64,000 nt of DNA from Argopecten irradians (lineage: Eukaryota > Mollusca > Bivalvia > Pectinida > Pectinidae): the NCBI RefSeq assembly GCF_041381155.1, contig NC_091135.1:58688567-58752566 (forward strand), written 5' to 3'. Below are positions 5,531-62,491 of the stretch, one piece after another. The stretch's first letter is position 1. Every line of letters begins with the position of its first letter. The position numbers and the translations under genes are program-made. The notes under the pieces are model-generated. The model was not told where the DNA came from and searched no databases. It saw nothing but the letters and a program-made list of their open reading frames with translations.

Positions 5531-5572
<42 letters not shown>

Positions 5573-5592
5573 TTTAAAAAAAAATAAAAACA

Positions 5593-5669
<77 letters not shown>
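5512..5669. repeat. Paired poly-C tracts with flanking poly-A
   Basis: A first run of about 40 C starts near 5533. It is followed by an A-rich spacer of about 25 bp, a second run of about 40 C (from about 5597 to 5636), and then about 33 A to 5669. The A-rich stretch before the first C run resembles the spacer, so the whole looks like a duplicated (A-rich)(C-run) unit. The glycine- and phenylalanine-rich minus-strand reading frames here are artefacts of these runs. Confidence 0.9.
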
Positions 5670-12369: not shown

Positions 12370-13905
12370 AAACAAGAGGCCCAGAGGGCCTGTATCGCTC
12401 ACCTGGTTTGTAATGCCAAGTAATGTTCTAAATACAGGTTCATTGTTTCTTTTCTGAAGGAATTCGAATATTTACCTCTAATTCACCTACTGGGCCCTAC
12501 CCATCCTACCCCCGGGGGGTCAGAGCCAACATTTATACAAGTTCTGTTCCCCTTCCCCCATGGATGTTTGTGGCCAAATTTGGTCACAATCCATGCAGAA
12601 CTCTAGAAACAAGTAGCAATTTATAGGATTTACCTCTATTTCCCCTATTGGGCCCCACCCCTCCTGCCCCCGGGGGGTCAGAGCCAACATTTATAGAAGT
12701 TCTGTTCCCCTTTCCCCAAGGATGTTTGTGGCCAAATTTGGTCACAATCCATGCAGAACTCTAGGACAAGTAGCGATTTATAGGATTTACCTCTATTTCC
12801 CCTATTGGGCCCCCGCCCCTCCTGCCCCGGGGGGTCAGAGCCAAACTTTATACAAGTTCTGTTCCCCTTCCCCCAAGGATGTTTGTGGCCAAATTTGGTT
12901 ACAATCCATGCAGAACTCTAGGACAAGTAGCGATTTATAGGATTTACCTCTATTTCCCCTATTGGGCCCCGCCCCTCATGCCCCCGGGGGTCAGAGCCTA
13001 ACTTTATACAAGTTCTGTTCCCCTACCCCCAAGGATGTTTGTGGCCAAATTTGGTTACAATTCATGCAGAACTCTTAAGACAAGTAGCGATTTATAGGAT
13101 TTACCTCTATTTCCCCTATTGGGCCCCGCCCCTCCTGCCCCCGGGGGGTTCAAAGAACCAAACTTTATACAAGACACTGATTCTTTCCCACGTCTCCCCC
13201 AAAGGATGTTTGTGGCCAAATAGGGGGCGTTCTAACAATCCATGCCAGGACTCCTAAGGAGGGGACCAATGTAGCGATGTAATCAGGTGCTTTTGTTACA
13301 CTCTATTTCCCTATGGGGCCCCGCCCCTCCTGCCGCCCGGGGGGGTCAGAGGCCTAAACTTTAATACAAGTATCTGTTTCCCCACCCCCCAATGAGATGT
13401 TTGTGGCCAAATTGGTTTCTATCCCCCCCCCCCCCAATCCAATTGCAGATGACGCTCTAGGATAACAAGTAGCGATTTTTAGGAATTTACCTCTAGTTTT
13501 CCCCCTATTGGGACCCCGCCCCTCCTGCCCCCAGGGTGGGGTCAGAGCCAAACTCTTATACAAGTTCTGTTCCCCTTCCCCCAAGGATGTTTGTGGCCAA
13601 ATTTGGTTACAATCCATGCAGAACTCTAGGACAAGTAGCGATTTATAGGATTTACCTCTATTTCCCCTATTGGCCCCGCCCCTCCTGCCCCCGGGGGGTC
13701 AGAGCCAAACTTTATACAAGTTCTGTTCCCCTTCCCCCAAGGATGTTTGTGGCCAAATTTGGTTACAATCCATGCAGAACTCTAGGACTAGTAGCGATTT
13801 AAAGGAAATGTTGACGGACGGACGACGGACGGACGACGGACGACGGACGACGGACGCCGCGCCATGACATAAGCTCACCGGCCCTTCGGGCCAGGTGAGC
13901 TAAAA
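12370..13905. mobile_element. Bivalve-type nonautonomous element with 157-bp internal tandem repeats
   Basis: It starts with 'aacaagaggcccagagggcc' and ends with '(gacg)n', then 'gctcaccggcccttcgggcc' and 'aggtgagct'. Internal copies containing 'tttatacaagttctgttccc' recur every 157 bp (for example 12621, 12778, 12935, 13092 for 'ttatagg'). Copies between about 13140 and 13560 are disrupted by many small insertions, while the copies on both sides are nearly identical. Confidence 0.8.
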
Positions 13906-23616: not shown

Positions 23617-25736
23617 AATGCAGAGGTATTTCAATGAAATCATAATGTGGATTAATAAACAATCATAAGGTAAGGCCGAAAATATATTGTTATCTCTCCT
23701 AACAAAAAAAACTATCAACCACAGAAATATTTTTGTAAGATCCGATATATGTAGACATATCAGTATTGAAGTTTAATTTTTGTGACACAGGGACATTATA
23801 TCATAAGCCTTTATCCTGTTTTACAGTTGAACTACATTTTATAATAACATGCGTATATATTAACGATAGGCTTTGACTACTGTAACCTAACAGTAGTAAT
23901 ATAGGCGTGTCTTTATACAAAATGGACTGATACTTATTATGTTACTTATGGAGTGATAGGACAGCAGAAATCATCGAACAGTTAACTGTTTAATCTTCTG
24001 ATGTCAGCATCAGGGAATATGTCATTCTTGAAACTTCCTTCCCTTTCTCTCTCTCTTCCTCCTCCCCACCCCTCCTATCTGTATATCTTTCTGTGCCTGT
24101 GATCTGCCTTCTCTCTCTCTTCCTCCTCCCCACCCCTCCTATCTGTATATCTTTCTGTGCCTGTGATCTGCCTTCTCTCTCTCTTCCTCCTCCCCACCCC
24201 TCCTATCTGTATATCTTTCTGTGCCTGTGATCTGCCTTCTCTCTCTCTTCCTCCTCCCCACCCCTCCTATCTGTATATCTTTCTGTGCCTGTGATCTGCC
24301 TTCTCTCTCTCTTCCTCCTCCCCACCCCTCCTATCTGTATATCTTTCTGTGCCTGTGATCTGCCTTCTCTCTCTCTTCCTCCTCCCCACCCTCCTATCTG
24401 TATATCTTTCTGTGCCTGTGATCTGCCTTCTCTCTCTCTTCCTCCTCCCCACCCCTCCTATCTGTATATCTTTCTGTGCCTGTGATTTTTTGCCTTCTCT
24501 CTCTCTTCCTCCTCCCCACCCCTCCTATCTGTATATCTTTCTGTGCCTGTGATCTGCCTTCTCTCTCTCTTCCTCCTCCCCACCCCTCCTATCTGTATAT
24601 CTTTCTGAGTCTGTGATCTGCCTTCTCTCTCTCTTCCTCCTCCCCACCTTTCCTATCTGTATATCTTTCTGTGCCTGTGATCTGCCTTCTCTCTCTCTTC
24701 CTCCTCCCCACCCCTCCTATCTGTATATCTTTCTGTGCCTGTGATCTGCCTTCTCTCTCTCTTCCTCCTCCCCACCCCTCCTATCTGTATATCTTTCTGT
24801 GCCTGTGATCTGCCTTCTCTCTCTCTTCCTCCTCCCCACCCCTCCTATCTGTATATCTTTCTGTGCCTGTGATCTGCCTTCTCTCTCTCTTCCTCCTCCC
24901 CACCCCTCCTATCTGTATATCTTTCTGTGCCTGTGATCTGCCTTCTCTCTCTCTTCCTCCTCCCCACCCCTCCTATCTGTATATCTTTCTGTGCCTGTGA
25001 TCTGCCTTCTCTCTCTCTTCCTCCTCCCCACCCCTCCTATCTGTATATCTTTCTGTGCCTGTGATCTGCCTTCTCTCTCTCTTCCTCCTCCCCACCCCTC
25101 CTATCTGTATATCTTTCTGTGCCTGTGATCTGCCTTCTCTCTCTCTTCCTCCTCCCCACCCCTCCTATCTGTATATCTTTCTGTGCCTGTTATCTGCCTT
25201 CTCTCTCTCTTCCTCCTCCCCCCCCTCCTCCTATCTGTATATCTTTCTGTGTCTGTGATCTGCCTTCTCTCTCTTCCTCCTCCCCACCCCTCCTATCTGT
25301 ATATCTTTCTGTGTCTGTGATCTGCCTTCTCTCTCTCTTCCTCCTCCCCACCCTTCCTATCTGTATATCTTTCTGTGCCTGTGATCTGCCTTCTCTCTCT
25401 CTTCCTCCTCCCCACCCCTCCTATCTGTATATCTTTCTGTGCCTGTGATCTGCCTTCTCCATCTATTTCTCCCTTTCCAAAATGTAAATATATAGTCATC
25501 ATCTTAATGTGTACAAACGTTTTTAGAAACTGTATTGAGATAGGGCTTAAAATAAGTTGGACAACTTCCCATTGTATATACATTTGTACATTTACTTGAA
25601 CAATAAAATATGTTTAAATCAATACTTATGTTTATTTACAGTTTAATGACAGTGGCTATTGTGGTTATTGGACTAGAGGCGTCCATTAGTACCATCCTGA
25701 ACTTAGTCTTGTTGTACAGAGTGTCCAGCCAGAACA
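14180..25736 (+). CDS. NAGPA: N-acetylglucosamine-1-phosphodiester alpha-N-acetylglucosaminidase (uncovering enzyme), ten exons, both ends missing
   Basis: This Golgi membrane enzyme removes the covering GlcNAc and exposes mannose-6-phosphate on lysosomal hydrolases. Exons: 14180-14546, 17113-17206, 18319-18449, 19015-19123, 19568-19696, 20408-20610, 20890-21066, 22184-22303, 22755-22827, 25642-25736. All have AG/GT borders and the phases agree throughout. Family motifs appear in order: 'TLSVLEP', 'MNAGFF', 'SGGIQNVHFGI', 'QLVSGVIWLI', the glycine-rich 'NLDGGGSSS', 'RCPRTVSTVLCIHEP', then EGF-like cysteine-rich modules (exons 6-8) and a hydrophobic membrane span in exon 10. About 499 codons are visible, against 515 residues in the human enzyme. 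The signal-peptide exon upstream and the cytoplasmic-tail exon downstream were not located; a weak candidate for the latter begins at 26008. Exon 14180-14546 needs one extra base near 14421-14423 to keep frame. Identification is strong; intactness is uncertain. Confidence 0.9.
15060..15900 (+). mobile_element. Truncated, internally deleted non-LTR retrotransposon (LINE)
   Basis: From about 15090 a frame reads like the start of a LINE reverse transcriptase domain ('YWRLVKRLMK', 'IPTLVDPESDS', 'KANVLINYFC'). It jumps near 15275 to a C-terminal zinc-knuckle-like segment ('CIRGHKCESAYHFSQC', 'LRNLNVDLCF') ending with TAG near 15402. The catalytic middle is missing. The tail runs to 'aataaaccttgag' near 15900. 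A jockey/CR1-type origin is inferred from the motif style. It lies in the first visible NAGPA intron, same strand. Confidence 0.65.
15661..15834 (+). repeat. 57-bp tandem repeat, three copies
   Basis: 'attatcaatcattatatatc' recurs at 15664, 15721 and 15778, exactly 57 bp apart and nearly identical. It lies in the 3' tail of the LINE remnant. Confidence 0.9.
15901..17112 (+). other. NAGPA intron; no further feature recognised
   Basis: AT-rich intron sequence between the LINE remnant and the exon at 17113. I see no gene or repeat in it. Confidence 0.4.
17812..17936 (-). CDS. Possible orphan exon, cysteine-containing, antisense in a NAGPA intron
   Basis: On the minus strand 'catactcag' precedes 17936 and 'gtatgtcc' follows 17812, giving a 125-bp open exon (phase 1 in, phase 0 out). 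It is richer in GC than the surrounding intron. The peptide includes 'VECTNHLLGESRVNKN' and 'YKLNCDCINYGCTVQ'. The spacing of cysteines suggests a small secreted-type domain but I do not recognise a family. Partner exons were not found, so it may be a stray exon, a nested gene or chance. Confidence 0.35.
18932..19014 (+). repeat. Duplicated 3' splice-site segment of NAGPA exon 4
   Basis: 'tatcaccgtatgaatgtttt' and the following '(c)taccctag' occur twice, the second copy ending at the acceptor used for exon 19015. The first copy also ends in 'ccctag' (18971-18976), giving a decoy acceptor about 38 bp upstream. Confidence 0.65.
19800..20250 (+). mobile_element. SINE-like dispersed repeat copy A
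   Basis: It shares with 38845-39330 a run of motifs in the same order: 'aaaggcgac', 'cttcctaa', 'tcacttttggcc', 'tctataaaagtggtagt' and 'gtgggacgaccag(t)ttgccc'. It ends with 'aaatgaccctg' and 'aataggacgtta', the tail also seen in the SINE at 50280. It lies in a NAGPA intron. Confidence 0.6.
21719..21837. repeat. Short foldback with perfect 17-bp arms
   Basis: 'atggcttaattatagtg' (21719-21735) is matched by 'cactataattaagccat' (21821-21837). It lies in a NAGPA intron, just before a 'tatatagatatatatatc' stretch at about 21870. Confidence 0.7.
22828..24029 (+). other. NAGPA last intron, 5' part; poly-A run
   Basis: Mostly unremarkable AT-rich sequence. A run of about 32 A lies at 23584-23615, possibly the tail of an old retroposed copy, but no body is recognisable. 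Confidence 0.5.
24030..25470. repeat. 64-bp pyrimidine-rich minisatellite, about 22 copies
   Basis: The unit begins 'ctgccttctctctctcttcc', continues with a 'tcctccccacccctcc' core and ends 'tttctgtgcctgtgat'. Copies are close to identical with few substitutions and small indels (for example near 24485 and 25215). The plus strand is almost purely pyrimidine over half of each unit. It fills the intron before the NAGPA transmembrane exon. Confidence 0.97.
25642..25736 (+). CDS. NAGPA: NAGPA transmembrane exon
   Basis: Acceptor 'tttatttacag' lies before it and donor 'gtacgt' at 25737. It encodes a hydrophobic stretch beginning 'LMTVAIVVIG' and ending near 'LVLLYRVSSQN', which fits the single type I membrane span of the family. 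It is split from the previous exon by a 2.8-kb intron filled with a pyrimidine satellite. The tail exon that should follow (phase 1) was not identified. Confidence 0.75.
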
Positions 25737-29180: not shown

Positions 29181-32100
29181 TTAACACAAACTAGTGTCCT
29201 TGTCATGATGTTTTCGTTTTTGTGGTCTCGTTCTATAACTTGGTGGAGTAGTTTTATTATGATAAAGGTATCTGACCAACTGAAAAACATCCGGAATGAC
29301 GATCAACGAGATACTCAAGGCTAGAAGGATCGCTCCGACTACCCCTATCACCTGTGCAGAAGGTCTGTCATCTCTAGCACTGATCTTCTTACGACCAGAG
29401 GACGAAAGGGATAATCTATCCACCGCCAGTTCGGCCTTCAGTTCCGCGACTATACAATTGACATCATTCTGTGTACAGACAGTGGTGGACTCCGTGGAAG
29501 TTGTGGATGATCGAGGAAAAGGGGTTTGGTCAGACGACACGACTGATGTAGACCGGTTAGAGGTCTCATTGTGTATTGTCGTGGTAGAGGTGTAGTCTGT
29601 ACTGTTCACGAACGTCACACCTGCCATTCAGAACATGTGATCATTATGGATACACAGGATGCATTTTGTCTATTCTACATGTACACACTAAAGGGTTAGG
29701 GCTTAATTACCTTCAACAGACAATAATTTGACCAAGCTTAAATGCCTTGTCTTATCCGACTTAACACTACGTATACAGCTTACCTCAGTGTTTGGAACAC
29801 ACATACATTCTACAAATGAAATGAGTTTAGCTATTTATTTAACATTAAAGCAATGCATATCGTTTGCTTAATGAAGATGACTAAAAGACAAAACTCATTG
29901 GCTTCACTATTAGATGATTGTAATTGGGATAATATAAAAAAGAAACAATGATATTGAAGAATTTCTATGGGATTATATAATCAGATTTTTAAAAACCTAA
30001 ATTGTTACATAAATTATCACTGAGATGATAATTAGTTCATGTATAATTATTTCACTATTACCCTTTTGTATTATCCATGTAGCGTCAGAGCTTGAAAGAA
30101 ATCCAACGTATTCAACTTCGGACAACATCGTTAAGTTGTTACTCACCGTTTAATTATGTGGGGTGGGATTTTTTTTCGGAAAAATTACGATATTTAAAAA
30201 TATTCTCCGTTTAATATAAATTCATTACTCTAAAATATTTGTTATTAAGTATATATGCATCCATAATACAGATGTAATCAATATTGCATCGCACCACATG
30301 TCTTGCTTCAACATGTCCCCATCTGGGTCCATCTTAGTATACATGGTTTATTGGGAAAATGGCGATATTTAAAAAATAATTTTATGTGTTTTATATGAAT
30401 TTTTCACTAAAAAATATTTGTTATTAAGTATATATGCACTAATAATGCGGATGATATCAATATTACATCGCATCACATTTCCTGATTCAAAATGTACCCG
30501 ACTAAGTCCGTCTTCGTATCCGGGTCGTTTTTTTGGAAAAATCGCGGTATTTAGAAAAAATTTCATGCGATGAATATGAGTTGGGTCTAAGTTTGTATAC
30601 GATTTTTAGCCCACCATCATCAGATGGTGGGCTATTCAAATCGCCTTTCGTCCGTGGTCCGTGGTCCGTCCGTCCGTCCTTCCGTCCGTCCGTCCTTCCG
30701 TCCGTCCGTCCGTCCGTCCGTTAACAATTCTTGTTACCGCTATTTCTCAGAAAGTACTGAAGGGATCTTTCTCAAATTTCATATGTAGGTTCCCCTAGGA
30801 CCCTAGTTGTGCATATTGCATTTTGCGACCGATCGGTCAACAAGATGGCCGACAGGCGGCCATCTTGGATTTTGATAGTTAAAGTTTGTTACCGCTATTT
30901 CTCAAAAAGTGCTGAAGGGATCTTTCTCAAATTTCATATGTAGGTTCCCCTAGGACCCTAGTTGTGCATATTGCATTTCGGGACCAATCGGTCAACAAGA
31001 TGGCCGACAGGCGGCCATCTTGGATTTTATTAGTTAAAGGTTGTTACCGCTATTTCTCAAAAAGTGCTGAAGGGATCTTTCTCAAATTTCATATACAGGT
31101 TCCCCCAGGACCCTAGTTGTGCATATTGCATTTTGGGACCGATCAGTCAACAAGATGGCCGACAGGCGGCCATCTTGGATTTTGATAGTTAAAGTTTGTT
31201 ACCGCTATTTCTCAAAAAGAACTGAAGGGATCTTTCTCAAATTTCATATGTAGGTTCACCTAGGACCCTAGTTGTGCATATTGCATTTTGGGACCGATCA
31301 GTCAACAAGATGGCCGACAGGCGGCCATCTTGGATTTTGATAGTTAAAGTTTGTTACAGCTATTTCTCAAAAAGAACTGAAGGGATCTTTCTCAAATTTC
31401 ATATGTAGGTTCACCTAGGACTCTAGTTGTGCATATTGCATTTTGGGACCGATCGGTGAACAAGATGGCCGACAGGCGGCCATCTTGGATTTTGATAGTT
31501 TAAGTTTGTTACTGCTATTTCTCAAAAAGAACTGAAGAGATCTTTCTCAAATTTCATATATAGGTTCCCTAGGGCCCTAGTTGTGTATGTTGCATTTTGG
31601 GACCGATCGGTGAACAAAATGGCCGACAGGCGGCCATCTTGGATTTTGATAGTTTAAATTTGTTACCGCTATTTCTCAAAAAGTACTGAAGGGATCTTTC
31701 TCAAATTTCATATGTAGGTTCCCCTAGAACCCTAGTTGTGCATATTGCATTTAAGGACTGCTCCATAATGCTTTTTGGGACTGATCGGTAAAAAAGATGG
31801 CCAACCGGCCGCCATCTTAGATTTCATTGTTGAAGTTTGTTACCACTTTTTCTTAGAAAGTACTATAGCGATCTGTCTCAAATTTTATATGTAGTGTGTT
31901 TGAAAAAGTTTGAAAAGCAGGGAAAAGATCCTCTTTCCATTTTCAGACATAAATCATTCTTTGGTGGGCGCCAAGATCCCTCTGGGATCTCTTGTTAAAG
32001 GATTATCTGGTATTTAAGACATATTTTCATTAGTTTAGTACTTTTGTTTGATAATTTGAACATATGCATGCTATTTAAAGATGCTCCACCGCCGACAGAG

Positions 32101-43129: not shown

Positions 43130-43744
43130 AAGGTCGATACCCAACTTTTTTGTTTCCATTTGTGTACTGAACTGAAGAGTCAATGACTAGTACCCAACTT
43201 TTCTATCCATTTGTATACTGAACTGAAGAGTCAATGACCAGTACCCAACTTTTCTATCAATTTGTGAACTGAACTGAAAAGTCAATGACCAGTACCCAAC
43301 TTTTCTATCCATCTGTGTACTGAACTGAAGAGTCAATGACCAGTACCCAACTTTTCTATCAATTTGTGAACTGAACTGAAGAGTCAATGACCAGTACCCA
43401 ACTTTTCTATCCATTTGTGTACTGAACTGAAGAGTCAATGACCAGTACCCAACTTTTCTATCCATTTGTGAACTGAACTGAAGAGTCAATGACCAGTACC
43501 CAACTTTTCTATCCATTGGTGTACTGAACTGAAGAGTCAATGACCAGTACCCAACTTTTCTATCCATTGGTGTACTGAACTGAAGAGTCAATGACCAGTA
43601 CCCAACTTTTCTATCCATTGGTGTACTGAACTGAAGAGTCAATGACCAGTACCCAACTTTTCTATCCATTTGTGAACTGAACTGAAGAGTCAATGACCGG
43701 TACACAACCTTTATATCAATTTGTGTACTGATTTGAAGAGTCAT
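43130..43744 (-). repeat. 51-bp minisatellite array A, about 11-12 units
   Basis: On the minus strand each unit is 17 codons reading near 'LTLQFSTQMDRKVGYWS'. The frame is open for 185 codons (43187-43744). Unlike arrays B and C it does not run into an exon copy; it ends in unique sequence. Confidence 0.95.
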
Positions 43745-44405
43745 GTATGTGTGGTTCGGTCGGTACCCTACCTTTCTGTCTATTTGTATACTGATTTGAA
43801 AAGTAAATATATGTGTGGTTCAGCCGGTACCCTACCTTTCTGTCTATTTGTAAACTGATTTGAAGAGTAAATATATGTATGGGTCAGCCGGTACCCTAAC
43901 TTTCTGTCTATTTGTATAATGATTTGAAGAGTCAATGTATGTGTTGTTCAGGCGGTACCCTAACTTTCTGTCTATTTGTATACTGATTTGAAGAGTAAAT
44001 ATATGTGTTGTTCAGCCGGTACCCTACCTTTCTGTCTATTTGTAAACTGATTTGAAGAGTCAATGTATGTGTTGTTCAGCCGGTACCCTACCTTTCTGTA
44101 TATTTGTATACTGATTTGAAGAGTAAATATATGTGCTGTTAAGCCGGTACCCTAGCTTTCTGTCTATTTGTATACTGATTTGAAGAGTCAACCATGTGTG
44201 GTTCGGTGGGTACCCTAACTTTCTGTCTATTTGTTTACCGATTTGAAGAGTCAATGTATGTGTTTTTCGGTCGGTACCCTTGTATACTGATTTGAAGAGT
44301 CATATATGCGTGGTTCAGCCGGTAACCTACCTTTATGTCTATTTGTATACTGATTTGAAGAGTCAATGTATGTGTGGTTTGACCGGTACCCTACCTCTCT
44401 ATTCA
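43745..44405. repeat. 64-bp minisatellite array A
   Basis: Units carry 'gccggtaccctacctttctg' and 'tctatttgtatactgatttg'. Period 64, for example 43802, 43866 and 43930 for 'agt(a/c)aat'. The core resembles the 51-bp unit but the length is not a multiple of three, so no frame is kept. Confidence 0.95.
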
Positions 44406-44409
44406 TTTG

Positions 44410-44731
44410 TCAAGGTATGTGTGCTTTGCTTTGCCTTTGAAATAGATACCTGCATAATATTACAAAGTCCGGAACAAAGACTATGAGTACAAATGCTACC
44501 AGGAAAGCTACCCCTACCATACCAATCGCCTGTGCGGACGGCCTGTCATCGTTAGCACTGGTTTTCTTCCTAATGGTGGATGAGAGAATTTGTTTGTCCA
44601 CAGTCAACTCCTTCTTCACGGCTTCTATTACACAGCTGACGTCATTTAAGGCACAGTCGAACGATGTGGTATTGAGCTTGATACAGACACACGGACAAAC
44701 CCCGCTTGCCATTGTGGAAGTGTATGTTGTT
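44410..44731 (-). pseudogene. Truncated copy A of the FAMeT-gene terminal exon
   Basis: Nearly identical to the 3' part of the exon at 48027-48532: the 'CPCVCIKLN' cysteine cluster, '[13 protein letters not shown]', the membrane span and the stop. The Thr-rich 5' part and the splice acceptor are gone. The copy is joined at 'gttgttgtca' to 51-bp array B, and the joined frame stays open for 295 codons (44410-45297). It could be a dead copy or part of an alternative last exon. Confidence 0.8.
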
Positions 44732-45297
44732 GTCAATGACCAGTACCCAACTTTTCTATCCATTTGTGTACTGAACTGAAGAGTCAATGACCAGTACCCA
44801 ACTTTTCTATCCATTTGTGAACTGAACTGAAGAGTCAATGACCAGTACCCAACTTTTCTATCCATTGGTGTACTGAACTGAAGAGTCAATGACCAGTACC
44901 CAACTTTTCTATCCATTGGTGTACTGAACTGAAGAGTCAATGACCAGTACCCAACTTTTCTATCCATTGGTGTACTGAACTGAAGAGTCAATGACCAGTA
45001 CCCAACTTTTCTATCCATTGGTGTACTGAACTGAAGAGTCAATGACCAGTACCCAACTTTTCTATCCATTGGTGTACTGAACTGAAGAGTCAATGACCAG
45101 TACCCAACTTTTCTATCCATTTGTGTACTGAAGTGAAGAGTCAATGACCAGTACCCAACTTTTCTATCCATTTGTGTACTGAACTGAAGAGTCAATGACC
45201 AGTACCCAATTTTTCTATCCATTTGTGAACTGAACTGAAGAGTCAATGACCGGTACACAACCTTTATATCAATTTGTGTACTGATTTGAAGAGTCAT
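44732..45297 (-). repeat. 51-bp minisatellite array B, 11 units, in frame with exon copy A
   Basis: Eleven 17-codon units precede the exon copy without a stop. The unit variants differ mainly at '(S/T)(Q/P)' positions. Confidence 0.95.
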
Positions 45298-45960
45298 GTA
45301 TGTGTGGTTCGGTCGGTACCCTACCTTTCTGTCTATTTGTATACTGATTTGAAAAGTAAATATATGTGTGGTTCAGCCGGTACCCTACCTTTCTGTCTAT
45401 TTGTAAACTGATTTGAAGAGTAAATATATGTGTGGGTCAGCCGGTACCCTAACTTTCTGTCTATTTGTATAATGATTTGAAGAGTCAATGTATGTGTTGT
45501 TCAGGCGGTACCCTAACTTTCTGTCTATTTGTATACTGATTTGAAGAGTAAATATATGTGTTGTTCAGCCGGTACCCTACCTTTCTGTCTATTTGTAAAC
45601 TGATTTGAAGAGTCAATGTATGTGTTGTTCAGCCGGTACCCTACCTTTCTGTATATTTGTATACTGATTTGAAGAGTAAATATATGTGCTGTTAAGCCGG
45701 TACCCTAGCTTTCTGTCTATTTGTATACTGATTTGAAGAGTCAACCATGTGTGGTTCGGTGGGTACCCTAACTTTCTGTCTATTTGTTTACCGATTTGAA
45801 GAGTCAATGTATGTGTTTTTCGGTCGGTACCCTTGTATACTGATTTGAAGAGTCATATATGCGTGGTTCAGCCGGTAACCTACCAATTATGTCTATTTGT
45901 ATACTGATTTGAAGAGTCAATGTATGTGTGGTTTGACCGGTACCCTACCTCTCTATTCAT
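45298..45960. repeat. 64-bp minisatellite array B
   Basis: Almost identical to array A (43745-44405) over its whole length, including its unit order and irregular units such as 'gtgggtacc' and 'tttttcggtcggtaccc'. This shows block duplication, not independent expansion. Confidence 0.95.
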
Positions 45961-45963
45961 TTG

Positions 45964-46288
45964 TCAAGGTATGTGTGCTTTGCTTTGCCTTTGAAATAGA
46001 TACCTGCATAATATTACAAAGTCCGGAACAAAGACTATGAGTACAAATGCTACCAGGAAAGCTACCCCTACCATACCAATCGCCTGTGCGGACGGCCTGT
46101 CATCGTTAGCACTGGTTTTCTTCCTAATGGTGGATGAGAGAATTTGTTTGTCCACAGTCAACTCCTTCTTCACGGCTTCTATTACACAGCTGACGTCATT
46201 TAAGGCACAGTCGAACGATGTGGTATTGAGCTTGATACAGACACACGGACAAACCCCGCTTCCCATTGTGGAAGTGTATGTTGTTGTC
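45964..46288 (-). pseudogene. Truncated copy B of the FAMeT-gene terminal exon
   Basis: As copy A, with one or two base differences (for example 'cttcccatt' for 'cttgccatt'). It joins 51-bp array C in frame at the same breakpoint and gives an open frame of 465 codons (45964-47361): 21 repeat units plus a 108-residue C-terminal part. Confidence 0.8.
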
Positions 46289-47361
46289 AATGACCAGTAC
46301 CCAACTTTTCTATCCATTTGTGTACTGAACTGAAGAGTCAATGACCAGTACCCAACTTTTCTATCCATTTGTGTACTGAACTGAAGAGTCAATGACCAGT
46401 ACCCAACTTTTCTATCCATTTGTGTACTGAACTGAAGAGTCAATGACCAGTACCCAACTTTTCTATCCATTGGTGTACTGAACTGAAGAGTCAATGACCA
46501 GTACCCAACTTTTCTATCCATTGGTGTACTGAACTGAAGAGTCAATGACCAGTACCCAACTTTTCTATCCATTTGTGTACTGAACTGAAGAGTCAATGAC
46601 CAGTACCCAACTTTTCTATCCATTTGTGAACTGAACTGAAGAGTCAATGACCAGTACCCAACTTTTCTATCCATTGGTGTACTGAACTGAAGAGTCAATG
46701 ACCAGTACCCAACTTTTCTATCCATTGGTGTTCTGAACTGAAGAGTCAATGACCAGTACCCAACTTTTCTATCCATTGGTGTACTGAACTGAAGAGTCAA
46801 TGACCAGTACCCAACTTTTCTCTCCATTTGTGTACTGAACTGAAGAGTCAATGACCAGTACCCAACTTTTCTATCCATTTGTGTACTGAACTGAAGAGTC
46901 AATGACCAGTACCCAACTTTTCTATCCATTTGTGAACTGAACTGAAGAGTCAATGACCAGTACCCAACTTTTCTATCCATTGGTGTACTGAACTGAAGAG
47001 TCAATGACCAGTACCCAACTTTTCTATCCATTGGTGTTCTCAACTGAAGAGTCAATGCCCAGTACCCAACTTTTCTATCCATTGGTGTACTGAACTGAAG
47101 AGTCAATGACCAGTACCCAACTTTTCTATCCATTGGTGTACTGAACTGAAGAGTCAATGACCAGTACCCAACTTTTCTATCCATTTGTGTACTGAAGTGA
47201 AGAGTCAATGACCAGTACCCAACTTTTCTATCCATTTGTGTACTGAACTGAAGAGTCAATGACCAGTACCCAACTTTTCTATCCATTTGTGAACTGAACT
47301 GAAGAGTCAATGACCGGTACACAACCTTTATATCAATTTGTGTACTGATTTGAAGAGTCAT
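46289..47361 (-). repeat. 51-bp minisatellite array C, 21 units, in frame with exon copy B
   Basis: Twenty-one 17-codon units. Variants recur in the order SSQ, STQ, STP, STP, which points to expansion of multi-unit blocks. No stop codon occurs in the array. Confidence 0.95.
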
Positions 47362-48022
47362 GTATGTGTGGTTCGGTCGGTACCCTACCTTTCTGTCTAT
47401 TTGTATACTGATTTGAAAAGTAAATATATGTGTGGTTCAGCCGGTACCCTACCTTTCTGTCTATTTGTAAACTGATTTGAAGAGTAAATATATGTGTGGG
47501 TCAGCCGGTACCCTAACTTTCTGTCTATTTGTATAATGATTTGAAGAGTCAATGTATGTGTTGTTCAGGCGGTACCCTAACTTTCTGTCTATTTGTATAC
47601 TGATTTGAAGAGTAAATATATGTGTTGTTCAGCCGGTACCCTACCTTTCTGTCTATTTGCAAACTGATTTGAAGAGTCAATGTATGTGTTGTTCAGCCGG
47701 TACCCTACCTTTCTGTATATTTGTATACTGATTTGAAGAGTAAATATATGTGCTGTTAAGCCGGTACCCTAGCTTTCTGTCTATTTGTATACTGATTTGA
47801 AGAGTCAACCATGTGTGGTTCGGTGGGTACCCTAACTTTCTGTCTATTTGTTTACCGATTTGAAGAGTCAATGTATGTGTTTTTCGGTCGGTACCCTTGT
47901 ATACTGATTTGAAGAGTCATATATGCGTGGTTCAGCCGGTAACCTACCAATCAGTCTATTTGTATACTGATTTGAAGAGTCAATGTATGTGTGGTTTGAC
48001 CGGTACCCTACCTCTCTATTCA
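47362..48022. repeat. 64-bp minisatellite array C
   Basis: Third copy of the same array, directly after the stop of the intact terminal exon on the minus strand, so it would form the 3' UTR or 3' flank of the FAMeT gene. It differs from array B at few places (for example 'ccaatcagtc' near 47947). Confidence 0.95.
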
Positions 48023-48026
48023 TTTG

Positions 48027-51000
48027 TCAAGGTATGTGTGCTTTGCTTTGCCTTTGAAATAGATACCTGCATAATATTACAAAGTCCGGAACAAAGACTA
48101 TGAGTACAAATGCTACCAGGAAAGCTACCCCTACCATACCAATCGCCTGTGCGGACGGCCTGTCATCGTTAGCACTGGTTTTCTTCCTAATGGTGGATGA
48201 GAGAATTTGTTTGTCCACAGTCAACTCCTTCTTCACGGCTTCTATTACACAGCTGACGTCATTTAAGGCACAGTCGAACGATGTGGTATTGAGCTTGATA
48301 CAGACACACGGACATACCCCGCTTGCCATTGTGGAAGTGTATGTTGTTGTCACCATTTCTGTCGTTATTGCAGTGGTAGTTGTTGCTTCAGCAGTTGTTG
48401 TCAGGGAGGTTGTAGTGGAAAATGTTACTTCAGCTGTTGTTTTCATGGAGGTTGTCGTGGTAGTTGTTGTTTCAGCAGGTGTTGTAATTGGGATTGTCGT
48501 AGTAGTTGTTTCTATGGATGTTGTTTCTCCTCCTGCAATGTGCATTATACTAGAAAAAAAAATCATTTATACAGTAGATTTGACTTTCCTGGAAGTGTAT
48601 ACACTTGTATTATTCCATATTCATTTTTTTCTATATATATTCAGATCTTTAATCCTTTTAATCCTTTGCACCATACAATGGATCAGTGATCATATAAAAA
48701 GAATCATTTACATCGTTAACTGACATCTAAATATAGTTTATGGTTTCAAAAACTGTTTATGTACCGTCTCATTATTCTAGATTTAATCCCCCAGGGCATT
48801 ATATATCTACATAAAGGACAAATTTATAAGGCTGTGGAATACTAGCCACTTCAAAAACAATTAATACCAACATCGGTAACAATGACAGAGCGTTCAGTAG
48901 AAACAGCGTTATCTGCTAAAACTCATCGGGGACTCTCTCGATACTGATAAGTTATAATCCAAACCGAGCTACCGACTTTGTAGATGTCAATATAACAAGT
49001 CTAGTCAAAATAACCGCGTCGTATGGATTATTATAATAAAACAATGGTTTGTATATGATAATGTGATCAATGCCTCAAAATTATAAAATACTGAATATTA
49101 ATCTATCCTAAATAAAACAAGAGGTCGATTGGGCCTGTATCGTTCACCTGTTTCAGGCTAAGAAAACAAGCTACCAACTTGAAGGCTTTATAATTGAACT
49201 TAATCTATTTATTTCTAGAGATCGATTTTAAAGAATTTGCTATATTTTCCCTATTGGGCCCCGCCCTCCAGACCTCTGGGGGGACCAGACCCACCGTTTA
49301 TACAAAAATCGTTCCCCTTCACCAAAGGAAGCTTCAGACCAAATTAAAACTAAATTCCTTCATTCCCACAGAAGAGGAAGGATTTTAAAGAATTCACTAT
49401 ATTTCCCCTCAGGCCCCTGGAGGTCCAGGGTCACTGTATATACCAGATTGGTTCCTCTCAAACATGGGAGCTTCCGACCAAATTAGAACTCAATATCTTC
49501 ATTCCTACAGAAGAAGAAGGATTTTAACGAATTTGCTATGTTTCCCCTATTGGGCGCCGTAGGCCCCTTGGGGCAAGGGTCACCATGTATACAACTTTTT
49601 TTCTCTTGACACAAGGAAGCTTCAGACCAAATAAGAACTAAATCCCTTCATTCCTGCAGAAGAAAAAAGATTTTAAAGCATATTGGCCCGCCCCTCGGGC
49701 CCCTTGGGGGGAAAGGGGGGATAGGGTCGCCGTTTATGCAAGATTGGTTTCCCTTTATCTAGAACTAAATCCCTTCATTCCTACAGAAGAAGAAGGATTT
49801 TAAAGAATTTGCTTAATTTCCCCTATTGGGCCCGCCCCACCATTTATACAAGATTGGTCCCCCTTCACCCAAGGAAGCTTCAGACCAAATTTGGTGAAAA
49901 TCTATTCAGCCGTTAATGACTAGTCGGAAATTTTGTGAACAGTTGACGGACGCCGTACCAATTCACGTCATTTTCTCTTAAACGTATGACGTTATGCTCG
50001 CAAACACATGACGTCACAATCAATATCTAACCTACTCTGGTTAATACAATGGAAGTATACAACGAAAAGCAACAAAGCAAATACTGTATTTCGAGGTCTT
50101 GAACACTTGAATCAACTCAGAAGTGTTTTTATTACCACAAGCCCTCCACTTCTGGATCTCAAGTTCGAATCTCATGTGGGGCAGTTGCCAGGTATTGACC
50201 GCTTGTCGGTGGTTTTTCTCTGGGTACTCCGGCTTTCCTCCACCAACAAACCTGGCACATCCTTAAATGACCCTGGCTGTTAATAGGACGTTAAACTGAT
50301 AAAACTAAACAGAAGTATCATATTTCTATACTTAGAGTTAAATTCTTATATCGGCTCGTGACATTTACCTATTTTGATCTTCCATTCTCCGTCTGAGTAT
50401 ATCGACGTAGTTACTCCTATGTAGTTTACTGCTATTGGTGACGGGTCTATCCATAATGCTAACTCTGTCCACGTGACCCCACTGTCAGGGGACGAGAACA
50501 CCGACACATGACCAGAGCTCCACTTTACTTTGAAATAGTTGAACGCATTACAACCCAATACTGTGCCAGACATCTTGGTTTTCTCGCTTCCATATTTCGA
50601 GTCGTATATAACAATTTTGGTGTTTACATAGCCGCCTAAAGTGACCATGTATATTTTACCGGAGGCATCTTCATCATCTGTAGTCATCAGGGCTACCGAA
50701 GCATCCTGACACGCCTTCACTTGAAACTCCAGAGATGATTGACCGGCAGCTGAGTAACCATAAGCACTCAATAGTTTAACTTGCGTGTTTCCCTCAGATC
50801 CACTTTGTCTTGGGGTCAACACAGTCACTTCTGGAAAAAAAGATGAACAATATATCAGTGAAAACCTAAGAACCTTAAACGTATTTTATGTTCGTCAAAA
50901 TTTGATTCGAAAATTCAAGATACTTCTGTCACTAAATGTATGCAAAAGCGTTGCAAAACATGTGATACTATTATAGAGTGTAAAAATTATACATTCAAAA

Positions 51001-54000
51001 ATGGTTTTAATTTCAAAACTAATATGAATTGTACATCCAAAAATGTCATATAAGCCTTATTTGTAGCAAATGCTCAGATTTTTATATTGGTCAGACAGGA
51101 ATGGAATTGAGAAAGAGAGTTACATTACACCGACAACAAACTAAAACAGACCATCTCAGATATTTAACAGTAAACGAACATTGTCATATGTGTGTTAATG
51201 ATAACTTTTTTATTTTACCAACATATCAAATGTCTAATTCAGATCTTTTAAAAAGAGAAAATAAAGAAATGTATTTCATTCAACTTATGAAACCTGTGTT
51301 AAATTCAGAACGGGACAAAGGAACTTCATATTAGTTTTTATTTTGTCCTCATGTTTTTGTTAGTTTCTTCCAGAACCATTCACAATATCTTTATGTACCA
51401 TGTCATGACGTAATCTTACTATGACGTCATTGTACTATGACGTCATGTTTTACAAATAAAAGAATTAAAACCCCTGAAGACCGGCATGAGCCGAGAAAGC
51501 GCTAGGGAGGAAAAACTGTTTTATAGTTGTGTTTTCTTTTTATGTATATATATATATATATATTTGATACATTGCTATAACAGGTAATCCACCCAAGAGG
51601 CAGCAGCTGGGCAAAAGGTCAACAGTTCTCATTCAATATCTTGTCAATGGGACTAATTCACGTACCACGTGATACCCGATAACGTTTGTGCGGGACCATT
51701 ATCTCCAGTGGTGATGGAATGTATCTCTTTGTAATCTTCCCGCTGAAATGACGTTATCCCGCGATAACGCCATTTGACGTCATTCCATTACCAATAGAAA
51801 CAATAGTCCCGCACAAACGTTATCGGTTATCACGTGGTACGTGAATGAGTCCCATTACTTTCTCAACTTTCAAGCCATAGATCTCTACAACATGACCATG
51901 GAAAGGAATATGTAAGCCATCTCGATATAAGCCACAAAACAGTGTGTTTACCTAGCCTGGAATGAAGCTGTATGTAAGACATTTTTTGTTTGTTTAAAGT
52001 CCTATGAACAGCCATTGTATGTTAGTATTTGAATGATTTTCTGTTGAACCTAAATAACTTTTTTTTGTAATTTTCTCTGATTCTTACTATAACTGCGCCA
52101 AATCATCAGACCATATCCTGAACGTTTCTAGTGTTTCTACGCTAGGTGCTTTCCACTAGTGATTCTCTCTTACATTGTAATTTGCTTTTTGTAATAGTAT
52201 TTGTGGTATATTTGATAAATAGTTAAAGAATCAGTTCAATAATGTCTTTGATTTTCTATTCATTAATATTTCCAAGAATATGCAACATGTACAAGGCCAG
52301 TCATTAATAATCCATCATATATTGCGTATAACGTAAGACCGTTGTAGGATGCAGTACGTCGTAAGACCGTTGTAGGATGCAGTACGTCGTCGCGTGTACA
52401 ACTTGCAAACGTTACACGCCGGGTGTGCATTGATAGAACGCGAAGAAACGGCTATCATACACCTCGCCGTAAAGCCCGTGACAAAGCTGTACAAAACGGG
52501 AAAAATGTGCAGTCAATGTGCATCAACCGTGATAAAACGCGAAGTAAATATTGTTCAGAACATCACATTGAAACCACCGAGAGTTTCCACCACGGACCGT
52601 CTGCAAGTACTACCACGTTTTACAACGCCAAGCCCGTTTTGATACGTCCTGTCATGTTCACTATCTGATTGCCGTAGCAAATGCTTTCAGAGTTTAATGC
52701 TAGGTTTACACTATTGTCAAATTATTTGACAGTTTAAAAATCTGGCACGACATCCACGGTATTCACGACCGCTTACATTTGTCTATCACGTCCTTCTACG
52801 CTGTCTCATGTTGTCTTGTGGTCACCACGTTTTGTCCACGGTGGTCTGAAACGGGGCTGCCGTGGCCGCCGGGAACATAGTGTAAACCTAGCATAAACTG
52901 ACAAAAAAATTGCCACGGCAGTCACGGTACAGATGGTGAACGCTACAGGAGGACGTAATAAAACGTGACTGACGTAACAAAACGTAACAGCGCGTACGAG
53001 ACCGTAACAAAACTTCCATACAGTCCTTGGTGGAACGGGCAGCAACCATGTTCCCCGGCATCTTACGGTGATTTAAAGTTTTGTGACGTTCTGTTGCGTT
53101 TTTTTTTTTTACTTTTTATCACGGTTGATGCAGATTGGCTGCACGTTTTGTCCAGGTTTGTCAAGGTTTTGACGGCAAGCCAAGGTGGATGATAACCGTT
53201 TTGATACGTTCTGTCAAGGCATATTACGGCTTGTAGCGGTTGAAAGCCCGACGTGATACGGCAAGTTACGTCATATTACGATTATACGTTGCAAGCAATA
53301 TATGATGGAGTATCATTGCCTGGCCTGGTTTATATTTGCTACTTCATGGAATCATTTGCATTAATAAATAGAAATAGTCATTATTAAACACATTTAAACC
53401 ATCAAATTATACCAAAGCTATTACTGCAAAAGGCAGATTAAGTGAGAACCATTACAGAAAAAAAAAGGTTTGCGTAGAAACACTTGGCTATAATAATTTT
53501 ATATTTTTTATACATGTACCAAATATAGTTAAGATTTTCTTTTCTTTTAACACATTTTGTTATTAGAACGTGTTTGAAATGACAGTTCCGGCATAAATAT
53601 TGTTTCATTTGCTCCAAAAAAGCCCGGTATCAGATTTTTACCCTAGTAAGCCTTGGCGGACCGTGAAAAACGTATCGGAACTTATCAAAACGTGTAAAAC
53701 GTAGCAGAACTTATCAGATCGTAACAGGCCTAGAGAAAACGTAGTGGTATCCTCGATAGACCGTGCTAAAGCCGTAGTGTATCTTTGATCTCCGGGAACA
53801 GCACTCTCCCCTATACCCACGGTCCACCACGTAATCCGTAAAAGACCGTGGCAAAACTTCACAAGACCTAGCTCAACTTGAATACAGAGACAAAAATATC
53901 CAAAATTCCACGGCGCACCACGTTTCGGGCAAACGGGGCTAACGTGGTCGCCGGGAACATAGTGTAAACCTAGTGTAAAATCTGCTGGTCATCCCGTTTA

Positions 54001-60000: not shown

Positions 60001-62491
60001 AATAGCATCATAGCTTATCTCTATCAATTTCAGAACACTAAATAAATAATGTTATGGGATTGACAGAGATAAGCGGTGACAACAACTTATCCATACATGT
60101 TGTTTACAATACTTTAATGAGTCTGACTGTGAAAAAAAGTATGTTTCTACAGCAAGCAACGCGTTTATAGGTTTTATCATATCGGAACAAAAGACAGTAT
60201 GGTTGATCAATTAAAGCTATGTGACGAGGATGACTTACACCAGATTCATACTTCATTGTTATAGATTACCCTGTTGGCCAGTAAAGAGAAAGTATCACAC
60301 TATCTGTACCTAACATCCTGATATGGTGTCAACAGGATTATACAAATAATTCATAAGTCATCTTTATGCACTCTTCGTGCGAAATGATATACTAGGCCGA
60401 TTAATGTTTTAATTAACTTTGTATTGTAAATATCAAGTGATAAAGTAATTAATTAGTTATTTCTGCCGATAAATTTAATTAATGCGGACAGCCTGAGAGA
60501 TAGACGAGCCTATTTATTAGGAATTGTCATGACTGATCAAATCCTGATGTTAAAGACACAATGCTATCTTAGAAAACATCTTACTTATAAGGAATTGTCA
60601 TGACTGATCAAATCCTGATGTTAAAGATACAATGCTATCTTAGAAAACATTTTTACTTATTAGGAGTTGTCATGACTGATCAAATATCCCTATCCTTCAT
60701 ATACACATATGAAAGAGTTTTATAATATTCCATCTCGAGTCCTTGCTTACAATATTAATTATTAATGCATTCAATAGTAATATGTCCTGACAAATATATA
60801 TCTAAATTAACGAAATGATTTGTATGGGATTCAGAAATAAACAATTTCAGTAGGTTCATTAAGGTCTTCATTGGCAAATTGAAAAAAAGGCAGATCAATG
60901 ACTGAAAATCCAACAAACTCGTTTCCTTGTTCAAATAACAATTGATGACCATTACATATACGAGTATGCATAGGATAACATAACATTTACGTTGTGAATT
61001 TCACTTTGTACAGTTTTCATATTTTTTTAGATACCGTATCGATTTGGATTATATACAATTTTAAGATGGTGATATTGGAAAGAATTTTCATTACTCTGGT
61101 AAGTCAATACAGATTTACACTGAAATCTCACGCATAATGCGTTATTATCCTACTCATATTCATCTTTTAATTGGTTCGTCAGTGATAGAGTGATAACCCT
61201 TTCATCATTGTCAGTTTACTTCCATCAACAGGGAACAATAAGTCATAGCTGTTTTGAATTAATACATGGGTTTTAAATGGATTCTTCCATTGTTAACATT
61301 GCTCTAGTGTTTCACTGCTAACTCCACTGAAAAAAGAAACCCTTTTTTCTGTGCTGGCGTGTCTTTCATGGTGTTGTCGTTTATATTTCTCAATGACAAT
61401 CCCCGTCCCATGGGGTATAAGATGTGTAAAACACGACTGTTCCTCTCCAAATTATGTTTCACAACTGAACGTGATTTTGAGAAAGCAGGTTATTTTAACT
61501 AATTTACAGTAAAGTATGTGGGGTTCGTGATAATAATAGCACCCATTTTTGTGTAGAATGGAGAATTGTCTTGCAATTGCGGTTTTCTTCAGAACTTATC
61601 ACTGTAGACTGCTCAAAATGGTTAGATATCTTCATTGTAAAATTGCGATAAAACGTCTAGATATCAGAGGAAAACGCTCTTTAATATGTGGATATGAAGG
61701 ATAGGGATATTCTATATTCAGGATCGCAAAATAGTTTAAAAACCTCAGCAAGCCTGGGTTTTTGCTAAAGTTTGTGATCCTCAGGTAGACTCTCTCTTAT
61801 ATAGTATTATACATACTGTCAAAATGTCTGAAAAGGTTCTTTTACTTATAGTAAGTTGTAAATAAATGAAAAGTCGCTGTCATACCGTCCTTCCTTACAT
61901 TATCATCAGACGTTTACATTTTGTATTGAAATGTATTTCTCTGTTTGTGACAGTTAACGGTACAAATGCAGAGATCTTAATAACATTTATCATTATTTCG
62001 GATTGTTTTGTTATATTTCAAGTGACATTTAAAAAAACAACATAAAAAACAATCGTTTCATTCAAAATAGGCCAAAATAGAATAAACGTCTTCGTTATTT
62101 AAGGTTGTTGTTGAATGGTATTATCAAAGAACACAAATGAATATACCATTGCAGAATGTATTATTAGTTTGTAAAGTTTTACAATCAACTGATGGCGATA
62201 TAAACTCTAGAACAAATCGTTAAGTTAAAAGTGATACCTTATATATATTTATGTATAAACACTTTGTGTTTGATTCCAAATAACCAAAGTGATTAATTCA
62301 CGCTAACAAGTATATTTTTGTGTCAATCAGAACAATGAAAATTAAAGTGACACATTTTGACAAGAGGATTTTTTTTTAAACTTTGATAAACCTAAATACT
62401 ATTAAATATTATATTTGTACTTACCTGCTGATGTTATAGGGAGAAGAACGGCGAAGCAGAAGGTAAGTTTTCCGGGCCAAGCTAAACACAT
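48027..62491 (-). CDS. FAMeT-domain single-pass membrane protein, three exons, 344 residues
   Basis: Exon 1 (62425-62491) starts at ATG and encodes the signal peptide '[20 protein letters not shown]', ending in phase 1 at donor 'gtaagtac'. Exon 2 (50369-50830), between 'ttttttccag' and 'gtaaat', is a phase 1-1 module with a Methyltransf_FA/FAMeT domain ('[15 protein letters not shown]', '[13 protein letters not shown]', '[10 protein letters not shown]', 'IGVTTS'). Exon 3 (48027-48532) begins after 'cattgcag' and encodes a Thr-rich stalk, '[11 protein letters not shown]', '[13 protein letters not shown]', a membrane span and a short tail. The three lengths sum to 345 codons with the stop. From family knowledge the FAMeT domain in molluscan proteins is a lectin-like extracellular module, and its name does not imply methyltransferase activity. 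A surface recognition role is inferred. More domain exons may lie in the 11.6-kb first intron, but none was seen. Exon 2 identity is strong. Confidence 0.8.
48533..49100 (-). other. FAMeT-gene second intron, 3' part; no feature recognised
   Basis: AT-rich sequence. The polypyrimidine tract of the exon 3 acceptor lies about 14 bp upstream of the AG (minus strand of 48546-48560); an earlier 'ctag' there would put a stop in frame. Confidence 0.4.
49115..49960. mobile_element. Third member of the 'aacaagagg' bivalve repeat family
   Basis: It starts 'aaacaagaggtcgattgggcc' and 'tgtatcgttcacctg', parallel to the start at 12370, and ends 'gttgacggacgccg'. It contains four to five ~140-bp degenerate tandem copies with 'tcattcctacagaagaagaa' and 'tttcccctattgggcc'. 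It lies in the second intron of the FAMeT gene. Confidence 0.7.
50060..50310 (+). mobile_element. tRNA-derived SINE
   Basis: 'aagttcgaatctcatgtggg' holds a box B-like core (GTTCGAATC). 'gcagttgccaggt', 'tcggtggtttttctctgggt' and the tail 'ctgttaataggacgttaaac' are shared with the copy at 59375-59580. Inserted in the FAMeT-gene second intron, antisense to that gene. Confidence 0.7.
50862..51334 (+). mobile_element. Penelope-like retroelement remnant (GIY-YIG end), frameshifted
   Basis: A first frame from 50862 reads '[14 protein letters not shown]', '[10 protein letters not shown]' and '[15 protein letters not shown]', the Cys-rich linker typical of Penelope-like elements. From about 51053 another frame continues with '[20 protein letters not shown]', the GIY-YIG nuclease start, to the TAG at 51332-51334. 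The reverse transcriptase part is absent. It lies antisense in the first intron of the FAMeT gene, with its recognisable start only about 30 bp from the exon 2 acceptor. Confidence 0.75.
51471..51505 (+). ncRNA. Hammerhead-ribozyme-like core after the Penelope remnant (degenerate)
   Basis: CTGAAGA (51474-51480) is followed by a short stem 'cggc'/'gccg' with loop 'atga', and then GAAA (51495-51498). This matches the hammerhead order CUGANGA - stem II - GAAA apart from an extra A. Penelope-like elements are known to carry hammerhead motifs. Stems I and III are not clear, so activity is doubtful. Confidence 0.3.
51540..51564. repeat. (TA)n microsatellite
   Basis: Simple 'tatatatatata' run in the first intron of the FAMeT gene. 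Confidence 0.9.
51648..51854. mobile_element. MITE with ~48-bp terminal inverted repeats
   Basis: The left end 'tgggactaattcacgtacca' with 'cgtgatacccgataacgttt' and 'gtgcgggac' is matched nearly perfectly in inverse by the right end, which finishes 'cacgtggtacgtgaatgagt' and 'ccca'. About 207 bp in all, with no coding. A partial relative lies at 27035-27165. Confidence 0.85.
51855..52320. other. FAMeT-gene first intron; no feature recognised
   Basis: AT-rich sequence with no gene or repeat seen. Confidence 0.4.
52325..53990. mobile_element. CpG-rich composite repeat with internal inverted motifs
   Basis: It opens with two copies of 'cgtaagaccgttgtaggatg' plus 'cagtacgt' (period 29). It is dense in words such as 'acgtaacaaaacgt' and 'ccgtgac'. 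'tgctaggtttacactat' (52697) and 'atagtgtaaacctagca' (52877) are inverted. 'cgccgggaacatagtgtaaa' occurs at about 52867 and 53951. An AT-rich stretch (53290-53630) separates two CpG-rich blocks. Its reading frames look spurious. Confidence 0.55.
53991..55410. other. FAMeT-gene first intron; no feature recognised
   Basis: AT-rich unique sequence; no exon with known motifs was found on either strand. Confidence 0.4.
55413..55523. repeat. (GATT)n degenerate microsatellite
   Basis: 'gattgattgattgattg' with interruptions over about 110 bp. Confidence 0.9.
55524..56457. other. FAMeT-gene first intron; no feature recognised
   Basis: A 'cat'-rich stretch occurs at 55720-55860. Nothing else seen. Confidence 0.35.
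56458..56510 (+). repeat. Half copy of the 58621-58769 foldback arm
   Basis: 'tggttgtcatattt' and 'gacatgtattggtgtgtaac' match the left arm of the foldback at 58621. The opposite arm is missing here. Confidence 0.6.
56929..57038. repeat. Foldback with perfect 22-bp arms
   Basis: 'actttgtttagtttatgaga' plus 'tg' (56929-56950) is the exact inverse of 57017-57038. Confidence 0.8.
57743..57824. repeat. Foldback with 25-bp arms
   Basis: 'tagatgccagagctttgcag' plus 'gcaat' pairs with the sequence at 57800-57824 at 22 of 25 positions. An inner pair 'cataatg'/'cattatg' extends it. Confidence 0.75.
58075..58425 (+). repeat. Duplicated ~340-bp segment, copy 1
   Basis: It matches 62890-63280 in the same orientation with a few substitutions: 'ttcttaagttggtcccatgg', 'ggcgtactaataccacaatc', 'aaaggtcaagaaatgggatt', 'ttgatcgatatgaaaatatc'. 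Confidence 0.9.
58621..58769. mobile_element. Foldback element with 50-bp arms
   Basis: The left arm begins 'ttggttgtcatattttgaca' and runs to 'tgggtgtt' (58621-58670). The right arm 58719-58769 is its inverse with about five differences. The spacer is about 48 bp. Confidence 0.8.
58785..59095. repeat. Degenerate array of 'gacaatgcg'-type words
   Basis: Words such as 'gcgacaatgc', 'gcgataatgc' and 'agcgacaatgcg' recur every 10-30 bp, ending with inverse forms ('attgtcgctgtcg'). It directly follows the foldback at 58621. No coding frame is credible. Confidence 0.6.
59375..59580 (+). mobile_element. tRNA-derived SINE, second copy
   Basis: 'caagttcgaatctcatgtgg' (box B-like), 'ggcaattaccaggttctgac', 'acttggcacgtcctaa' and 'gataataggacgttaaag' match the SINE at 50060-50310. 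Confidence 0.7.
59581..60505. other. FAMeT-gene first intron; no feature recognised
   Basis: AT-rich unique sequence without a recognisable exon. Confidence 0.35.
60515..60685. repeat. ~72-bp tandem repeat, 2.4 copies
   Basis: 'aggaattgtcatgactgatc' (the last copy reads 'aggagttg') recurs three times, followed in the first two by 'aaatcctgatgttaaaga'. Confidence 0.85.
60682..61712. mobile_element. Possible ~1-kb element bounded by ~29-bp inverted repeats
   Basis: 'aaatatccctatccttcata' (from 60682) and 'tatgaaggatagggatattc' (to 61712) are inverse at about 27 of 29 positions including their continuations. No transposase frame lies between. The call rests on the ends only. Confidence 0.4.
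61713..62424. other. FAMeT-gene first intron adjoining exon 1; no feature recognised
   Basis: AT-rich sequence only. Confidence 0.35.

Follow-up and report, generated by a model that had tools for sequence, protein, structure and literature searches.

Tandem copies of a last-exon end and its 3' minisatellite at a mucin-22-like gene of the bay scallop Argopecten irradians

Tandem blocks that carry exon sequence are familiar from the D4Z4/DUX4 macrosatellite and the LPA kringle repeats, in which the exons are complete or spliced, and minisatellites that are themselves coding are represented, in the mucin-type class, by MUC1. For the CUP1 arrays of yeast, one study explains the arrays by a joining of unlike sequences followed by unequal crossing-over (PMC4232551). 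Here we describe a locus in Argopecten irradians that invites comparison with these systems. Within a stretch of 64,000 nucleotides (nt) of contig NC_091135.1 (assembly GCF_041381155.1, positions 58,688,567 to 58,752,566; hereafter the window), the terminal exon of a gene for a mucin-22-like protein is followed by two 5'-truncated copies of its own end, each accompanied by minisatellite arrays with units of 64 and 51 base pairs (bp). We consider it highly probable that the exon end was duplicated in tandem together with a minisatellite in its 3' flank, that the intact exon makes the protein, and that the truncated copies most likely go untranslated.

On the minus strand, the intact terminal exon is succeeded by one array of each period, 64 bp before 51 bp, and this succession is repeated twice with a 5'-truncated exon in place of the intact one (Table 1), the order that a preliminary description of this DNA had given and that we locate in three blocks spanning 48352-43138. 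The copies are adjacent, lie in the same orientation and have one novel junction in common, as expected of a tandem segmental duplication: the passage from array to truncated exon reads GGTCATTGACAACAACATAC in both block B and block C, and the tetranucleotide TGAC (GTCA on the plus strand) at the breakpoint occurs in both parental sequences, which bears out the earlier claim that the two truncated copies were cut at the same place. Pairwise comparison of the 326 exon nt present in every copy shows 2, 1 and 1 differing positions. When the leading 1063 nt of the blocks are aligned, a stretch comprising the exon piece and the 64-bp array, the pairs differ in 6, 7 and 5 columns, one of which, in two of the three pairs, is merely the end of the fixed-length cut. 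When the blocks are compared in full, B departs from A at 7 positions and through gaps, one of 1 nt and one of 510 nt (equal to 10 units), and C departs from A at 18 positions and from B at 19, in addition to gaps.

Table 1. Coordinates, in the window, of the gene and of its duplicated blocks
Feature	Position	Strand	Remarks
Block A	48352-46290	-	2063 nt
Block B	46289-44736	-	1554 nt
Block C	44735-43138	-	1598 nt
First junction	46286..46289	-	TGAC common to 51-bp unit and exon
Second junction	44732..44735	-	TGAC; breakpoint identical to first junction
Intact terminal exon	48027..48532	-	threonine (Thr)-rich stalk, cysteine (Cys) cluster, membrane span, tail, stop; 100% identical to P0005 residues 177-344 (48533-48030)
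In-frame 42-bp repeat of the Thr-rich stalk	48373..48510	-	3.3 copies (TRF); absent from truncated copies
Truncated exon copy B	45964..46289	-	2 differences from intact exon in 326 nt; no acceptor
Truncated exon copy C	44410..44735	-	1 difference from intact exon in 326 nt; no acceptor
64-bp minisatellite, block A	47314..48017	-	TRF
51-bp minisatellite, block A	46290..47358	-	21 units, the first transitional between 64- and 51-bp types
64-bp minisatellite, block B	45250..45954	-	TRF
51-bp minisatellite, block B	44736..45294	-	11 units
64-bp minisatellite, block C	43697..44400	-	TRF
51-bp minisatellite, block C	43138..43741	-	11 units and a degenerate last one; private variants; in-frame TAG
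First coding exon, signal peptide	62425..62491	-	100% identical to P0005 residues 1-22 (62491-62426); phase-1 donor CAG/GTAAG
Second coding exon, Methyltransf_FA (PF12248)	50369..50830	-	phase 1 at both ends; Pfam E 5.9e-17; 100% identical to P0005 residues 23-177 (50831-50367)

The host of these blocks is, by its predicted product, one ordinary gene for a membrane protein that is secreted and then anchored. Of 2619 candidate proteins compared with the product of the joined exons (a 321-residue query), five reached an E value of 0.001 or better, the top match being a mucin-22-like protein of A. irradians (P0005, 344 residues) with 100% identity over the whole query. All 344 residues of this protein are encoded within the window, at three minus-strand places that are 100% identical to it and join in frame, and it uses the intact last exon only. 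Both introns flanking the Methyltransf_FA exon are in phase 1; this exon scores 62.2 bits with PF12248 against a curated cut-off of 24.2, and the whole protein 60.2 bits, and the membrane span of the intact exon reaches a hydropathy of 2.98. Among open-licence papers, we found no literature on the mucin-22-like gene or its array.

The preliminary description had spoken of two minisatellites. Both arrays are indeed present, but they are not separate kinds: in best-rotation alignment, the 51-bp unit corresponds to the 64-bp unit with 13-14 nt missing, and the first 51-bp unit of every block is intermediate in sequence between the two types. Two independent minisatellites can thus be ruled out, and the arrays form one minisatellite family. 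The 64-bp arrays carry an identical series of units across all three blocks, and the change in length sits in the more uniform 51-bp array, as would be expected of slippage or unequal exchange, with 21, 11 and 11 units in blocks A, B and C (21.1, 11.1 and 11.8 copies by TRF). Degenerate and private unit variants are confined to the far end of the block C array, beside unique sequence, and this distal end is probably where the ancestral array ended. At the other extreme, the array of block A starts within about 10 nt of the intact stop codon. No further copies of the units were found elsewhere in the window, the best outside match having an E value of 0.032 and at most 28 nt. The last 13 coding nt agree with the 64-bp unit at 12 of 13 positions, a score reached by 13 of 500 shuffles (one of them at 32 against 21) and by 0 of 162 other coding windows; this resemblance is no more than suggestive of an array that may have derived from the end of the coding sequence.

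We propose that, in the ancestral state, a minisatellite abutted the stop codon of an ordinary scallop gene on its 3' side. Since degenerate and private units occur only at the distal end of block C, the ancestral order would have been exon, 64-bp array, 51-bp array and unique flank, with the arrays of A and B cut by the junction. Part of the 64-bp array may have turned into the 51-bp form, which then amplified, and a tandem duplication of the microhomology type would have joined TGAC of the last exon to TGAC of the 51-bp array, copying the exon end and both arrays. The third copy, with its identical junction, could have come from unequal homologous exchange or from the same step repeated, and slippage or exchange within the very uniform 51-bp array would have produced the present unit numbers. 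The shared TGAC, the repeated junction and the unequal array lengths fit such a course, that is, short-homology joining followed by unequal homologous exchange. The blocks are young, with a divergence that lies below the heterozygosity of Pecten maximus, given as 1.71% in PMC7191990; the part of PMC7090048 available to us holds no heterozygosity figure for A. irradians.

After these events, the intact exon would still make the protein, and the truncated exons would lie in its 3' region with no acceptor, promoter evidence or signal peptide. Judged from their sequence, the truncated copies are probably untranslated: they lack P0005 residues 177-236 (the Thr-rich part) as well as the splice acceptor, and the signal peptide of the gene lies 14-16 kb upstream. 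A splice that would join the Methyltransf_FA exon to the array was considered and rejected. At its donor this exon carries one base, and in a comparison of the four commonest array AG contexts per phase, the sole phase-fitting AG of the consensus unit is GATAGAAAAG/TTGGG (19 cases in the block A array), which follows GGATAGAAAA in a purine-rich context with a pyrimidine fraction of 0.35; this argument is only moderate, as the real terminal acceptor also scores poorly (0.47) on so crude a measure. In-frame ATGs in the array could be used by a transcript starting there, and its product would be devoid of a signal peptide.

The 51-bp array reads straight into the Cys cluster, membrane span and stop of a truncated exon, as the preliminary description had observed, in stop-to-stop open frames of 320 and 490 codons (295 and 465 residues from the first ATG). 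The period is a multiple of three, and the frame in phase with the exon stays open, into the tail, through 10 full repeats in one array and 20 in the other, in addition to the transitional unit. Array C, which joins no exon, has an in-frame TAG at 43189-43187, just short of which the stretch examined in its open-frame check ended. In dinucleotide shuffles of the consensus unit (n=20000), a given frame was open in 41% of cases and any of the three in 82%; the open frame of the array is about what chance gives. That copy-number change cannot break the frame, another statement of the preliminary description, is true, yet the same holds for one third of all periods, which is the prior for divisibility by three, and it needs no selection.

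The variation among the array units gives no indication that their coding content is constrained, 13 events being a weak test. Compared with the consensus, the 40 units hold 13 distinct variants, namely 1 synonymous, 11 missense and 1 nonsense (the stop in array C), against 29 synonymous, 113 missense and 11 nonsense among all 153 possible single changes. Neither an excess of synonymous change nor an absence of stops beyond chance, either of which would mark a coding minisatellite, is seen in the 51-bp array; arrays A and B alone have 8 variant types, all missense, which means little at a nonsense expectation of 7%. The array peptide (LTLQFSTQMDRKVGYWS) is hydrophilic, with a peak 19-residue hydropathy of -0.22, and it was found in none of the 7997 candidate proteins scored against the 320-residue frame, the three matches at an E value of 0.01 or better all being to the tail and covering 31-34% of the query.

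We likewise doubt that the array holds a Transglut_N or MG2 domain: its Pfam matches exceed or approach the cut-off, yet permuted repeats behave in the same way. With PF00868, the transglutaminase N-terminal family (Transglut_N), the 490-residue frame scores 62.8 bits, above the cut-off and with one stretch passing alone, and the other array-frame scores, 36.6 and 37.6 bits, are above the cut-off with no stretch passing alone. Permuted 17-mers set in tandem, run also at shorter lengths of 170-306 residues, matched at least one unrelated family above the cut-off in 6 of 6 cases, with up to 127.7 bits and no stretch passing alone. The PF00868 match is therefore most likely spurious, although the single stretch of the 490-residue frame that passed alone sets it apart from the permuted repeats.

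Several observations weigh against a duplication whose truncated copies are silent. The TGAC match at the junction is short. Of the six frames of each array a single one is open, namely the exon-phase frame, as would be seen if the frame were used. Some array AG sites, with a 17-nt pyrimidine fraction of 0.65-0.71, surpass the gene's own terminal acceptor, so that splicing into the array is conceivable; these sites sit in other phases than the upstream donor needs. Finally, the interval from the intact stop to 42731 contains neither AATAAA nor ATTAAA, and transcripts may therefore run through all three blocks. This last point, together with the closeness of the arrays to the stop codon, would also suit a regulatory role in which the repeats and extra exon copies make up a long 3' untranslated region that modulates the mRNA of the intact gene, but variant poly(A) signals, such as AATAGA at 48020, stand right after the intact stop, and we judge such a role unlikely.

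We think it quite unlikely that the blocks are an artefact of assembly, with the same block included repeatedly or two haplotypes set side by side. The blocks are set apart by substitutions and array lengths of their own, the novel junction of exon and array is present twice, which a plain haplotype misassembly would not create, and P0005 is recorded on a 73-Mb contig, which indicates that the assembly is contiguous. Such an error could nevertheless account for nearly identical copies in a region rich in repeats, particularly as the P. maximus heterozygosity exceeds the divergence between blocks, and the window does hint at stretches that are hard to sequence. The homopolymers at 5533-5669 (40 C, 41 C and 33 A) are suspicious for sequencing or polishing error.

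It is very unlikely that the 51-bp arrays are a functional device whose translation would place repeat domains of variable length on the fixed anchor of the truncated exons (the ectodomain system suggested in the preliminary description). The period, the in-phase frame and the unequal array lengths of the blocks would serve such a device, but the open frame needs no selection, the copies have lost their acceptor together with the greater part of the Thr-rich stalk and bring no signal peptide of their own, the one phase-fitting acceptor is purine-rich, and the hydrophilic array peptide recurs in no scored protein. The neutral block that the same description offered as its alternative agrees with our results: the copies are at least 99% alike in the exon and the 64-bp array, and the array shows neither constraint nor a counterpart among the proteins scored.

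One further splice was considered. A donor-like CAG/GTATCT, whose last exon base is 48067, agrees with 7 of 9 consensus positions, carries two codon bases and lies between the membrane span and the stop, and the best-looking array acceptors, TTCAG/TACAC, take exactly its phase. An optional intron in the intact last exon, running from 48067 to an array AG and dropping the stop and the 64-bp array, is on these motifs extremely unlikely. If it were real, a variable number of 17-residue repeats would lead into a second Cys cluster and membrane span, the product would have two anchors and a length-variable loop, and the 3'-flank repeats would offer a route to length-variable membrane proteins; since the donor-like site is identical in the three exon copies, the same step could recur to the next block.

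The intact exon belongs by sequence to a set of molluscan membrane proteins (P0001-P0009) that share a tail composed of a Thr-rich part, a Cys cluster, RKKTSA-DDRPSA and a membrane span; we found no family name for these proteins. On the strength of match and domain order, with no tree, we regard Pecten maximus P0007 and Mizuhopecten yessoensis P0006 as the likely orthologues; in both, Thr-rich sequence, and not the array peptide, precedes the Cys cluster. A more diverged version of the tail ends P0004, P0008 and P0009 with other N-terminal domains, and members of the set differ from the scallop gene in carrying PF00754 or PF01822 domains (presumably F5/8-type and WSC, respectively) instead of Methyltransf_FA. 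In P0006 there are two tandem Methyltransf_FA copies, both matching the single exon 50831-50367, which fits duplication of a phase 1-1 exon. A tail-only predicted protein of M. yessoensis, P0001, lies on a separate 24.7-kb contig and shares 94% identity over 97 residues with the P0006 tail; it may reflect a further duplication of the tail exon or else the second haplotype. The window itself holds a second, diverged terminal exon of the tail family at 29181-29627 on the minus strand, 48% identical over 75 residues to P0005, with AG at its start and no array.

Elsewhere in the window, an open frame at 2738-4689 (plus strand), which resembles a RING/B-box TRIM-type protein, continues in another frame after 4219, and an exact 14-bp tandem duplication is found at 4197-4224. 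Within the first intron of the gene, an open frame at 51023-51334 (plus strand) contains FYIGQTG...LRKR...H, reminiscent of the GIY-YIG endonuclease of a Penelope-like element, and has no Pfam match at an E value of 0.1. Further minisatellites occupy 24045-25459 (64 bp), 30731-31752 (155 bp), 6594-7258 (27 bp) and 12470-13806 (about 157 bp), the 64-bp one at 24045 having a different, pyrimidine-rich unit.

The scallop locus offers a clean and young example of how a minisatellite beside a gene can take part of the gene along and leave long open frames on a real membrane anchor without selection. It calls for caution in reading open frames through repeats, and the arrays may provide a length-polymorphic marker in the bay scallop. 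Like D4Z4/DUX4 and LPA, the locus consists of tandem exon-bearing blocks, but the scallop copies are without the acceptor and the upstream exons. With mucin-type coding variable-number tandem repeats, as treated in PMC1273636, the 51-bp arrays share a unit that is a multiple of three and a copy number that varies without frameshift, and the gene's own Thr-rich stalk, with its 42-bp unit, is of the same kind; in contrast to those repeats, the 51-bp arrays lie 3' of an intact stop, show no coding constraint and have no known product. At CUP1 (PMC4232551), the amplified segment holds a whole selected gene, with junction repeats of at most 3 bp, whereas in the scallop it holds a last exon truncated at its 5' end, the junction shares 4 bp and no benefit is known. 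The two systems are alike in that the initial duplication brings together unlike sequences of little homology and that the later copies share its junction and vary in number.

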